Part shown: in pieces, positions 2,945-13,193 of the stretch | How the letters are laid out: every line of letters begins with the position of its first letter | Numbering within the stretch: the first letter of the stretch is position 1 | NCBI GenBank assembly: GCA_947311115.1 | Contig: CAMZKE010000030.1 | Coordinates: 1-35,088 of the forward strand | Length of the DNA stretch: 35,088 nt | Direction of reading: 5' to 3' | Origin: an uncultured Bacteroidales bacterium | GTDB taxonomy: Bacteria > Bacteroidota > Bacteroidia > Bacteroidales > JAFGXI01 | Translations under genes and position numbers: made by a program | The notes under the pieces: model-generated | Databases searched by the model: none | Seen by the model: only the letters and a program-made list of their open reading frames with translations | Told to the model about the DNA's origin: nothing

Positions 2945-3541
2945 TTATTCTTTAGCAAATTTTATTAAAGGAATTATATTTCCATTGTCGGCTTCTCTTA
3001 ATGCTTTGATGTAGGCTTTCCTTGTTTCATCTGCTTTAACCATATTTGATTTGTGCCAACTAAAAATTTCTTTTCCAAAAATTGATTCAATAATTATATC
3101 AGCCATCATTCTTGAGTGTCTGCCATTTCCGTTAGGAAAGCAGTGAATTGATACAATTCTATGTTTAAATCTAATAGCAATTTCTTCAGGTGAAAAGGTT
3201 TTGTTCTTTATCCAATACTTGATGTCATCAATAAGGTTTTTTAATTCTATTCCGATTTGAGTCCAATTTACTCCAATATTCTTGTCAGTCAGTCTAAAAT
3301 GACCTGCCCATTTCCAAACATCACCATACATCTTTTTGTGTACATCTTTTATAAACTTTTCTGTCAATATTCTTTCAGCATTTAAATTAGCATGAATAGT
3401 CCATTCAATAGCCTTTTCAATATTTAACTGTTCAAATTCATCCAAATCTCCTTGTGTAAATATTGTTTTTATCTTTAAACCTTCTTTTTCTTCTTCATCT
3501 AAAGGTGTTTGTCCTTCATTATATTGTAATTCTAATCCCAT
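2945..3541 (-). CDS. Fic-family protein, mobile mystery protein B
   Basis: A 198-residue Fic-fold protein. Fic enzymes usually transfer AMP or another nucleotide-derived group onto a protein hydroxyl. The active-site loop is HCFPNGNGRHSR at 133-144: His133, the GNGR phosphate loop and Arg144 are present, but the usual acidic residue before GNGR (HxFx[D/E]GNGR) is Asn137. The N-terminal region (KTIFTQGDLDEFEQLNI) and the size match the family named mobile mystery protein B, which is always found with an HTH partner. Its ATG overlaps the end of that partner by 10 nt, so the two are translationally coupled. The toxin-antitoxin role is an inference from the arrangement. I am confident of the Fic fold and less sure that it is an AMPylase. 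Confidence 0.88.
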   Translation of the reverse strand: MGLELQYNEGQTPLDEEEKEGLKIKTIFTQGDLDEFEQLNIEKAIEWTIHANLNAERILTEKFIKDVHKKMYGDVWKWAGHFRLTDKNIGVNWTQIGIELKNLIDDIKYWIKNKTFSPEEIAIRFKHRIVSIHCFPNGNGRHSRMMADIIIESIFGKEIFSWHKSNMVKADETRKAYIKALREADNGNIIPLIKFAKE

Positions 3542-3993
3542 AATGACTTCCTCATTTCTCTTTTAATTTCATTTGCCATATCTTTTATTGTTTCTTCGAT
3601 TTTTTCATCTCCAATTCCTTGGTCCTCTAATTTCATATTTTGATTACTCCTTAATACAATCTTTTTTGCTAGTATATAGGCTTTATTGTTAACTAAATCA
3701 TTAATGGTTCCATCTATTGGGACAAAACCATATATAAACTTCATATCCAAGGCTTTGCCAACATCCTTTAATTTATTGATGGTTATCTGACCTGTAGCTT
3801 CACGTTCCTCTATTTTTTGGATTGCTCCTTTTGTCATATTAAGTTTTCTTCCTAATTGCTCCCTCGTCATGTTAAGAGTAGTTCTAATAGTGTTTACCCA
3901 TCCTTTTTGTGGAATAAGAACCTTTCTAGCATCTTTAAAATGAGCTAGTTTCTGTTCCAACTGTTCTATAAGTAGTTTTTTCTTATTTCTCAT
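3532..3993 (-). CDS. HTH protein, mobile mystery protein A (likely antitoxin/repressor)
   Basis: A 153-residue protein with an Xre/Cro-type helix-turn-helix at about 35-88 (TREQLGRKLNMTKGAIQKIEERE). The N-terminal charged stretch and the QKGWVNTIRTTLNMT segment fit mobile mystery protein A, the constant partner of the Fic protein that follows. By analogy with HTH/Fic pairs it probably represses its own operon and may counter the Fic activity. Its upstream region carries three copies of an AAAGAAT-type motif around a promoter box, which suits autoregulation. The pair sits alone between the trmD operon and mutS, which suggests insertion. The DNA-binding call is firm; the antitoxin role is inferred. 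Confidence 0.85.
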   Translation of the reverse strand: MRNKKKLLIEQLEQKLAHFKDARKVLIPQKGWVNTIRTTLNMTREQLGRKLNMTKGAIQKIEEREATGQITINKLKDVGKALDMKFIYGFVPIDGTINDLVNNKAYILAKKIVLRSNQNMKLEDQGIGDEKIEETIKDMANEIKREMRKSLWD

Positions 3994-4030
3994 TTATTAA
4001 TATTTTAGACATATAAGTATATTTATCAAA

Positions 4031-4090
4031 ACAAAAGAATACAAATATATATAAAAAAACAAACAAAAGAATATTTATATGTATTCTTTT
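4031..4090 (-). promoter_or_regulatory. Promoter with operator-like repeats upstream of the HTH/Fic pair
   Basis: A minus-strand TATATTTG box lies at 4042-4049. Around it are direct copies acaaaagaatac (4031-4042) and acaaaagaatat (4063-4074), and an inverted copy tgtattctttt (4080-4090) that is the exact complement of 4033-4043. Repeats spanning a promoter just upstream of an HTH gene are typical of an autoregulated operator. Binding has not been shown. Confidence 0.45.
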
Positions 4091-4146
4091 AAATTTTATA
4101 TTATACAAATACATATGATTATACTTGTGTAAAGTTCTATTTTAAA

Positions 4147-4317
4147 TTAAACTTAAACTAAGCGATTCTAAACTTTAAAAATCACAAATCATTTGGCACT
4201 AAAAGAGTTTGCAAAATTTTTCACATACCAACCAGGTGTACTCAAAGTTTGCATAAATATTTTAGCACCAAAGCATTCATAATTTTCTTTGTTTAAAATC
4301 GCTCAATTTAGGTTAAA
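4147..4317. repeat. Long imperfect palindrome, about 170 bp
   Basis: Arms pair around a centre near 4232: tttggcactaaaa (4192-4204) with ttttagcaccaaa (4260-4272), and agcgatt (4161-4167) with aatcgct (4297-4303). Both arms have the same 24-nt gap between the blocks, and about 14 of those 24 positions also pair. Weaker pairing extends to about 4147 and 4317. It fills most of the 386-nt gap between the HTH/Fic operon and mutS. It may be a small palindromic mobile element or a structured RNA; no gene is seen in the gap. Confidence 0.55.
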
Positions 4318-4379
4318 GCCAATACACAGATAAACGTATATTTTTAATGGAGTTTTATCGAAAAATCAATAAACTTTAA

Positions 4380-6989
4380 TTATTTGCCAATAAATTTCTT
4401 TATTTCATTTAGTTTATTTAAAGCTTCAACAGGAGTTAAATTATTAATATCTATACCCGATATTTCGTCTTTAATTTGTTTTAGAACGGGGTCGTCAAGC
4501 TGAAAAAAACTTAGTTGATATCCCTCGCGATTTTGTGCAATTTCTTCTACATTTTTAGTAGGCGATTTTTTTTCGGTATTGCCTTCCATTTCGGTAAGTA
4601 TAACATTTGCTCGTTCAACAACACTTTTTGGCATACCTGCCATACGTGCAACATGAATACCAAAACTGTGTTCTACTCCACCCGGCATTAATTTACGCAA
4701 AAACAATACTTTGTTTTTAAGCTCTTTTACCGTAACATTAAAATTATTTACACGTTTAAACGATTTTTCCATTTCGTTAAGTTCGTGATAATGGGTTGCA
4801 AACAAAGTTTTTGCCTTATATTTTGGGTGTTCGTGAATATATTCTACTATACTCCAAGCTATTGAAATACCATCGTAGGTACTTGTTCCTCTTCCTATTT
4901 CGTCTAATAATATTAGTGAACGCTCCGATAGGTTATTTAAAATACCGGCAGTTTCTGTCATTTCTACCATAAAAGTAGATTCACCCATTGAAATATTATC
5001 TGATGCTCCTACACGAGTAAAAATTTTATCGACAATACCTATACTTGCTGATTTTACGGGTACAAAACTACCAACTTGTGCCATTAACACAATTAAGGCA
5101 GTTTGCCTAAGCAATGCCGATTTACCCGACATATTTGGACCGGTTATTATTATAACTTGCTGTTCGGTGTTATCTAAAAACACATTGTTTGATATATATT
5201 CCTCATCTACAGGCAATTGTTTTTCAATAACAGGATGTCGCCCTTCTTTTATATCAAGAATTAATGTATCATTAATTTCAGGTTTTGCATAGTTATTTTC
5301 TATTGCGATATTTGCAAACGATATTAAACTGTCAATTTGTGCAAGTAGATTTGCATTTAATTGAATAGCAGAAATATAATCTGCTAACCAAAAAATTAGT
5401 TCGTTATAAATTTTTGTTTCAAGAGCAAGAATTTTTTCTTCGGCTCCTAAAACTTTACTCTCATAATCTTTTAGTTCTTCTGTTATATATCGCTCGGCAC
5501 TAGTAAGAGTTTGTTTTCTAATCCACTCTCCCGGTACTTTATCTTTATGAGTATTGCGTACTTCAATATAATAACCAAAAACATTATTAAACCCTATTTT
5601 TAACGATGGTATTCCGGTATTTTTAATTTCACGTTCTTGAATACCTTGTATATAATCTTTTCCTGAATTTTTTATTGCACGTAATTCGTCTAATTCGTTA
5701 TTTACACCGGAATTTATAACATCACCTTTGTTTACTAAATTAGGGGCTTCTGTATTTAATTCTTTTGCAATTTTTTCATTTGCAGTATCGCAAGTATTAA
5801 AATTATCGGCTATTTTTTTTAGTATCGGACTGTTTTGTTCTGATAAAATATTTTTTACTTCTGCAATAATATCTAAACCACGTTTTAATTGTAATATTTC
5901 GCGAGGATTAGCTTTTCCTACTGCAATTTTTGAAACAATACGTTCTAAATCGCCTGCGTGGCGTAAACTGTCTATTATTTGGTCTTTTATCTCGGTATTT
6001 TTTACAAAATATTCAACAGTATTTTGTCTGTCTAAAATAGGTTGAATATTTTTAAGTGGTAAGGCCAGCCAATTTCTAATCATACGTCCACCCATAGGTG
6101 TAACAGTTTTATCCATTACATCAATAAGGGTAAGAGCATCGTCGTTTGATGAGCCAAAAATTTCTAAATTTCTTATTGTAAATTTATCAAGCCATACATA
6201 TTTATCTTCCTCGATACGCGATATTTTTGTTATATGCTTAATGTTTCCATTATGAGTGAGGTCTAAATATTGCATTATTGCACCACTTGCAACAATTGCA
6301 TTTTCTTTGTTTTCTATACCAAAACCTTTTAGGGTTTTTGTGTTAAATTGTTTTATTAAACGCTCGTACGAACTGTCAAAATTATATGCCCAATCCTCTA
6401 GTTTAAAAGTATAAAACTTATCGCCAAAAAGCTCTTTAAATTTATCGTATTTACTACGTTCAAAGAGTAATTCTTTTGGCTGAAAACTTTGTAAAAGCTT
6501 ACCAACATAATTGGCATTTCCTTCTGATGTGTAAAACTCGCCTGTTGAAATATCAATAAAAGCAACACCTATTTTTTTATTGTTTATATGTACCGATGCA
6601 AGGAAATTATTTTGCTTATTTTCAAGAACATTATCATTAAGTGTAACACCGGGCGTAACCATTTCGGTAACTCCTCGTTTAACAATTTTTTTTGTCATTT
6701 TAGGGTCTTCCAACTGTTCGCAAATTGCTACACGTTGCCCTGCTCGTACAAGTTTTGGCAAGTAAATATCAACCGAATGATGTGGGAAGCCTGCAAGTTC
6801 AACATATTGGGCTGCTCCATTTGCTCTGCGGGTAAGTGTAATACCTAAAATTTTTGATGCTTTTATTGCATCATCGCCAAAAGTTTCGTAAAAATCGCCT
6901 ACTCTAAAAAGTAAAATAGCATCGGGGTGTTTAGCCTTAATACTAAAATATTGTTTCATTAACGGGGTTTTTACTATATCCTTTGCCAT
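4380..6989 (-). CDS. mutS: DNA mismatch repair protein MutS
   Basis: MutS recognises base mismatches and small loops and starts methyl-independent mismatch repair through MutL. From the ATG at 6987-6989 it has 869 residues, normal for MutS1. Visible features are the mismatch-probing FYE motif at 33-35, the connector and lever regions, the clamp, Walker A GPNMSGKS near 615, and Walker B with its following loop ([16 protein letters not shown]). The HTH tail is followed by a C-terminal [16 protein letters not shown] segment typical of MutS1. A TTG at 7010 also opens the frame, but a TATATTTG promoter box covers it, so the ATG at 6989, which starts [14 protein letters not shown], is chosen. All key residues are present. 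Confidence 0.97.
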
Positions 6990-7007
6990 ACTATTTTTGT
7001 TAGTCTG

Positions 7008-7015
7008 CAAATATA
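7008..7015 (-). promoter_or_regulatory. TATATTTG -7 box for mutS
   Basis: An exact TAnnTTTG match on the minus strand, 18 nt before the ATG at 6989, predicting a leader of roughly 12 nt. It decides the start codon, because a TTG start at 7010 would lie inside the promoter. Confidence 0.5.
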
Positions 7016-13143: not shown

Positions 13144-13193
13144 ATTTTTATTAATTAGTACATGCACTAAATAATCTTTCTTACAAAAAAACT

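Follow-up and report, generated by a model that had tools for sequence, protein, structure and literature searches.

A 161-bp foldback element with IS1380-type ends and a covarying, strand-specific fold in genomes of Bacteroidales

What is the long palindrome that lies next to mutS in the genome of an uncultured member of the Bacteroidales, and is it a part of its neighbors or a unit of its own? The window analyzed here, a 35,088-nt stretch of DNA (contig CAMZKE010000030.1 of assembly GCA_947311115.1), carries this palindrome between mutS and a pair of genes that code for an HTH and a Fic-domain protein. An earlier note, made from the letters alone, had placed it at positions 4147 to 4317 with the center near 4232 and had offered three options for its nature: a palindromic miniature element, the end of an acquired segment, or a structured RNA. 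The coordinates proved to be exactly those of a 161-bp element together with the 5-bp TTAAA repeats on its two sides (Table 1), and the center at 4232 was confirmed. Among the three options, the miniature element, here a nonautonomous miniature inverted-repeat transposable element (MITE), holds, the structured RNA appears to be a second property of that same element, as judged from covariation and strand-specific G-U pairs, and the segment end had to be given up (see below).

Table 1. Features of the palindrome and its neighborhood in the window
Feature	Position	Strand	Basis or remark
Fic-domain gene, mobile mystery protein B (TIGR02613, NCBIfam)	2945..3541	-	Family match
HTH gene, mobile mystery protein A (TIGR02612, NCBIfam)	3532..3993	-	Family match
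Left target-site duplication, TTAAA, 5 bp	4147..4151	n/a	Sequence; exact match at 5/5 positions
Foldback MITE, 161 bp	4152..4312	- (structured, i.e., stronger-folding, strand)	Folding, BLAST copies, end matching
Terminal inverted repeat CCTAAATTGAGCGATT, 5' end of the structured strand	4297..4312	-	16/16 against both ends of the IS1380-family IS at G000:C94:136-1876
Second terminal inverted repeat CTTAAACTAAGCGATT	4152..4167	+	13/16 to the same consensus end
Right target-site duplication, TTAAA, 5 bp	4313..4317	n/a	Sequence; match at 5/5 positions
mutS	4380..7010	-	Encoded on the strand of the structured RNA; its end is 62 bases upstream of the right duplication

The arms of this imperfect palindrome are complementary, and nearly its full length pairs as one long hairpin. 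The nested blocks that the note had described as equally spaced on both arms are helices parted by small internal loops, a 3x3 loop (AAA opposite AAA) and then a 2x2 loop, and the spacing is equal because these loops are symmetric. Folded as RNA, the minus strand of 4147-4317 reaches -58.5 kcal/mol, compared to a mean of -27.4 for shuffled sequences (z, -9.8), and the plus strand reaches -38.3 kcal/mol, compared to a mean of -18.6 (z, -5.9); in both cases, 0 of 200 shuffles were as good, which makes chance an unlikely explanation, as had been supposed. The difference between the strands of this copy, large with RNA energies, is almost gone with DNA parameters (-24.8 for the minus and -23.3 for the plus strand; z, -4.3 and -4.2, respectively). 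Measured against the 71 pairs in the fold of the copy on contig C136, the window copy has decayed in part: 3 of its cells are A-C and 2 others are unpaired as well, and C136 itself has none of either. There is no ORF of 80 or more amino acids within the 161 bp, so the element lacks a transposase gene of its own. The palindrome was not among the repeats listed by a general repeat finder, likely because its arms share no exact 9-base seed. The surroundings of the element showed no intrinsic terminator, promoter-like matches were at the level of chance (5 versus a mean of 4.1), and in an Rfam search of window positions 3000 to 5500 and 12 loci with copies, no match overlapping the element reached the gathering score.

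The search for further copies that the note had proposed was carried out and found full-length ones in the same genome and in six other genomes. In the former, a BLAST search of all 163 contigs detected three full-length copies beside that in the window, on contigs C136, C79, and C92 (91, 90, and 86% identity, respectively), and shortened elements of 73, 44, and 44 bp on C161, C19, and C112 were added by a covariance model (R1) based on the four sequences. The C136 copy sits between two ORFs that share a strand, directly behind the stop codon of the first; from their translations, and with no family search, we take these ORFs to be sufC and sufD. The other copies sit between unrelated genes, and copies occur in both orientations, with the one on C79 opposing both of its neighboring genes. 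The upstream ORF is in the sense of the structured strand in 13 of 20 cases (P = 0.26) and the downstream ORF in 14 of 19 (P = 0.064), so a sense orientation relative to genes is only a trend, and a general orientation rule was dropped. Weak matches to model R1 or model R2 (on C70, at C94:2657, at window position 13189, and others) had no element ends by our reading and were set aside.

Target-site duplications were evaluated in 30 elements (29 small ones and one insertion sequence, described below), whose borders were placed where the end motif matched best, independently of any duplication. Exact 5-bp duplications flank 17 of them; the remaining 13 lack an exact one, with 4 of 5 positions matching in 6 elements and fewer in 7. 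With flanks displaced by 7 to 15 bases as a control, exact duplications were seen in 0 of 150 cases. All 17 exact duplications have the form T-N3-A, with T as the first and A as the last base. One of them, at a relative in another genome (G194:C118), reads TATGA, the same sequence as is given for ISEcp1, a member of the IS1380 family that is described as making 5-bp duplications at AT-rich targets (PMC2887853, in part).

A candidate mover with matching ends is present in the same genome. Positions 136 to 1876 of contig C94 hold a 1,741-bp insertion sequence, flanked by TTGAA duplications of 5 bp, with a single ORF of 462 amino acids that matches the IS1380 transposase family NF033539 (181.4 bits versus the curated cutoff of 180) and PF13701. 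Both of its ends read CCTAAATTGAGCGATT, and the window element has this end, too, with identity at 16 of 16 positions, which upholds the miniature element of the earlier note, as do the dispersed copies and the 5-bp duplications. A broken relative of this insertion sequence in genome G136, 58% identical over part of the protein, carries the same or a near-identical end, CCTAAGTTGAGCGATT, and a similar one, CCTAACCTGAGCGATT, belongs to a relative with 40% identity that resides on a Solidesulfovibrio plasmid; the end therefore goes with this branch of transposases. Only the terminal repeats are common to the insertion sequence and the small element, as model R2 had no match within C94:136-1876, and the other IS1380 genes of the genome, on C143 and C48, are without this end. 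IS1380-family matches were found in four of the eight other host genomes; none of the genes checked there (four weak loci, L181, L182, L184, and L185, were left out) has these ends, the best end match being 12 of 16 (L174, L175, L176, L178, and L180) in draft assemblies that may miss repeats. From the shared ends we infer that an IS1380-family transposase, for example the one encoded on C94, would bind the ends of the element and move it in trans. A solitary IS1380-type end on C61 (L062, G000:C61:29827, minus strand) shows by eye some likeness to the left end of the C94 insertion sequence beyond the terminal repeat; a pattern search of that contig found no second end.

Model R1 has matches with an E value of 0.001 or better in 9 of the 393 genomes of the order, including the source genome, and full-length relatives are present in 6 of the 392 others (G390, G194, G089, G345, G262, and G290). 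In two more genomes, G045 and G131, the ends are common with the element and the interiors are different: four G045 elements (L140, L141, L143, and L144) are 46 to 55 bp long and contain little beyond two facing ends, with duplications matching at 4 of 5 positions at best, and that in G131 (L142, G131:C96:124-298) is a 165-bp foldback with exact TAATA duplications. The distribution is patchy: a genome of the same genus has no element, and a copy in G390, a genome of another family, shares up to 83% identity with those of the source genome. The close relatives G001 to G005 gave no R1 match, and inspection by eye revealed no element after sufC in any of these five genomes or after mutS in the three whose contig continues (G001, G002, and G003). 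Among 395 genomes of the phylum, model R2 matched only the source genome. BLAST searches of 60 related genomes found, outside that genome, only pieces of 26 to 44 bases; the covariance model detected the element in some of these hosts, which showed that BLAST failed there because of divergence, not absence. When 84,980 species genomes were scanned with a degenerate pattern, 11 single matches emerged, judged after inspection to be chance; viral contigs gave no match. In the family of G345, three of six genomes have matches; the third, G783, has two near-identical, long-stemmed hairpins of 114 nt whose ends are different (L186 and L187), perhaps from another foldback family, which were set aside since by our reading these ends are missing. 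In G262, a tRNA match occupies positions 1 to 82 of locus L138 (G262:C1063), at the contig end beside the copy in that genome.

The 20 full-length members, 159 to 162 bp long and 51 to 97% identical in pairs, were aligned by sequence alone; the covariation count excluded the G045 and G131 elements with their other interiors, a partial copy at G390:C309, and a half copy at C92:21018. In the RNAalifold structure of this alignment, paired cells make up 95.9% of 879 (shuffles, 84.5%), at least one member with both sides changed exists for 23 of 44 pairs (shuffles, 12.8), and covariation scores 0.392 (shuffles, 0.184), with 0 of 500 shuffles as good in each case; sliding the partner along the structure lowers the pairing to 33.9 to 48.1%. 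With near-identical copies removed, the nine representatives that remain show double changes at 22 of 44 pairs, compared to a shuffled mean of 10.6 (0 of 1,000). These statistics are strong but are not probabilities, as the shuffles ignore relatedness and the structure was derived from the same alignment. The outcome that the earlier note had named as speaking against it, folding at the level of shuffled sequence with no pairing kept in relatives, was thus looked for, and what was found is a fold well beyond the shuffles with pairing that is kept.

One and the same strand folds to the lower energy in all 20 members, and this strand also holds more G-U pairs. Over the 44 pairs, the ratio of G-U to A-C cells is 108 to 13 for the complete set, 54 to 3 for the nine representatives, and 28 to 6 for the BLAST-found copies of the source genome alone; counted as distinct pair states, the ratios are 28 to 12 (P = 0.008) for all 20 members and 26 to 3 (P = 8e-6) for the nine. 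Particular G-U pairs persist, at columns 39 and 139 in 16 and at columns 40 and 138 in 15 of the 20 members. The members from outside the source genome came from a structure-aware model, which favors paired sequences; this bias is limited, since a sequence-only profile of the four original copies recovers 15 of the 16 outside rows with E values of 2.2e-5 or better, missing only that of G290. A DNA cruciform would treat both strands alike; the one-sided G-U wobble separates selection on RNA from selection on DNA. That the hairpin is kept while the letters differ suggests that an RNA shape, beyond the DNA ends, matters for the survival of the element.

The location between the HTH/Fic pair and mutS gave some grounds to regard the palindrome as the end or attachment site of a mobile segment carrying that pair, the more so as the same-genus genome G001 has neither the pair nor the element directly after mutS. 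Such an origin is hardly credible: the element carries its own 5-bp duplications, its other copies are at unrelated places, and no second palindrome was found in the window, where model R2 gave only weak matches of 21.4 bits or less. The element does not mark the end of the pair, and the arrangement in G001 means, therefore, that the mutS spacer gathered two separate acquisitions, with nothing that ties one to the other. The paper library searched contained no literature on "mobile mystery protein" together with Fic. Just upstream of the HTH gene, at window positions 4009 to 4072, lies a pair of direct repeats of 32 bp, imperfect (72% alike) and possibly an operator.

A plain parasitic foldback MITE would be a palindrome of DNA only, serving as a cruciform or for transposase binding along the arms, with covariation produced by template switching between the arms. 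The terminal repeats and duplications account for mobility without any RNA, the hairpin is the whole element, and the DNA energies, too, beat the shuffles. Copying from arm to arm, however, would yield Watson-Crick pairs, yet the G-U pairs persist at their fixed places and the mismatches of the nine representatives are one-sided, so that we regard this explanation as unlikely. The G-U excess might also stem from strand-biased mutation, such as C to T on one strand, with no selection acting on RNA, and C is indeed scarce (a fraction of 0.061) where columns of the structured strand are unpaired. Such mutation is nonetheless quite improbable as the cause, because it leaves the double changes in the nine representatives unexplained and because the structured strand is the same in 20 of 20 members even though copies lie in both orientations.

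With the anatomy and dispersal of a mobile element and a covarying, strand-specific fold, the palindrome is very probably a MITE that is mobilized by an IS1380-type transposase and whose transcript would also be under selection. The transposase is expected to act in trans on the terminal repeats, inserting the element at an AT-rich T-N3-A target; copies that settle between genes would be read through in host transcripts, where the RNA of one strand could fold into the hairpin, and selection would then see that RNA hairpin. The most likely reason for the fold is that a self-contained hairpin, possibly an RNase III substrate or a 3'-end protector, would make insertions into operons tolerable, and the trend in the orientation data leans that way. 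A more tentative view is that the element might be a mobile noncoding RNA of 161 nt, selected for its own fold, that moves from one bacterial family to another by means of borrowed IS1380-type ends; this fold might, for example, serve to bind the ribosome, the transposase, or RNase III, and its selection would let the fold and length persist while the sequence drifts to about 51% identity.

Transcripts of MITEs are known to fold, and the question at issue is whether such a fold is selected or is a by-product of the palindrome. Here, members from several bacterial families keep their length (159 to 162 bp) and their pairing despite changed letters, with a one-sided G-U wobble, and a small, defined element with a matching candidate transposase makes the question testable.

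Several known families are similar in part. The prokaryotic MITEs NEMIS/Correia, ERIC, RUP, and YPAL are likewise described as palindromic, intergenic units of approximately 100 to 200 bp that have no transposase gene, carry a target duplication, and have transcripts folding to one long stem-loop, as is predicted here; NEMIS transcripts are reported to be RNase III substrates, and RNase III processing or 3'-end protection has been discussed for other repeats (PMC2229807, PMC10969869, and PMC3049150, each in part). Compared by description and by the lack of an Rfam match, they differ in their ends from the present element, with its IS1380-type end and 5-bp T-N3-A duplication, and covariation here extends between hosts of different families and comes with a strand preference. 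The bcr1 to bcr3 elements of the Bacillus cereus group are also MITE-like and intergenic, often within untranslated regions and operons, but are tied to that group and to a TTTAT motif, whereas the duplication here varies as T-N3-A in hosts of another order (PMC6542083 and PMC3446304, in part); membership in bcr1 was rejected, as none of the 17 exact duplications is TTTAT. REP and REPIN sequences are intergenic palindromic repeats as well, but of 20 to 40 bp and with a GTAG or CGTC tag (available text of PMC3733652), and the present element was not assigned to them, being a 161-bp unit with terminal repeats, ends that read CCTAA, and a target duplication. The IS1380 family itself (ISEcp1 and ISPme1) shares the 5-bp AT-rich duplication, down to the TATGA of the G194 relative, and its transposase is described as accepting imperfect ends (PMC9330008 and PMC2887853, in part); unlike these insertion sequences, the element has no transposase and has only the terminal repeats in common with the local member of the family.
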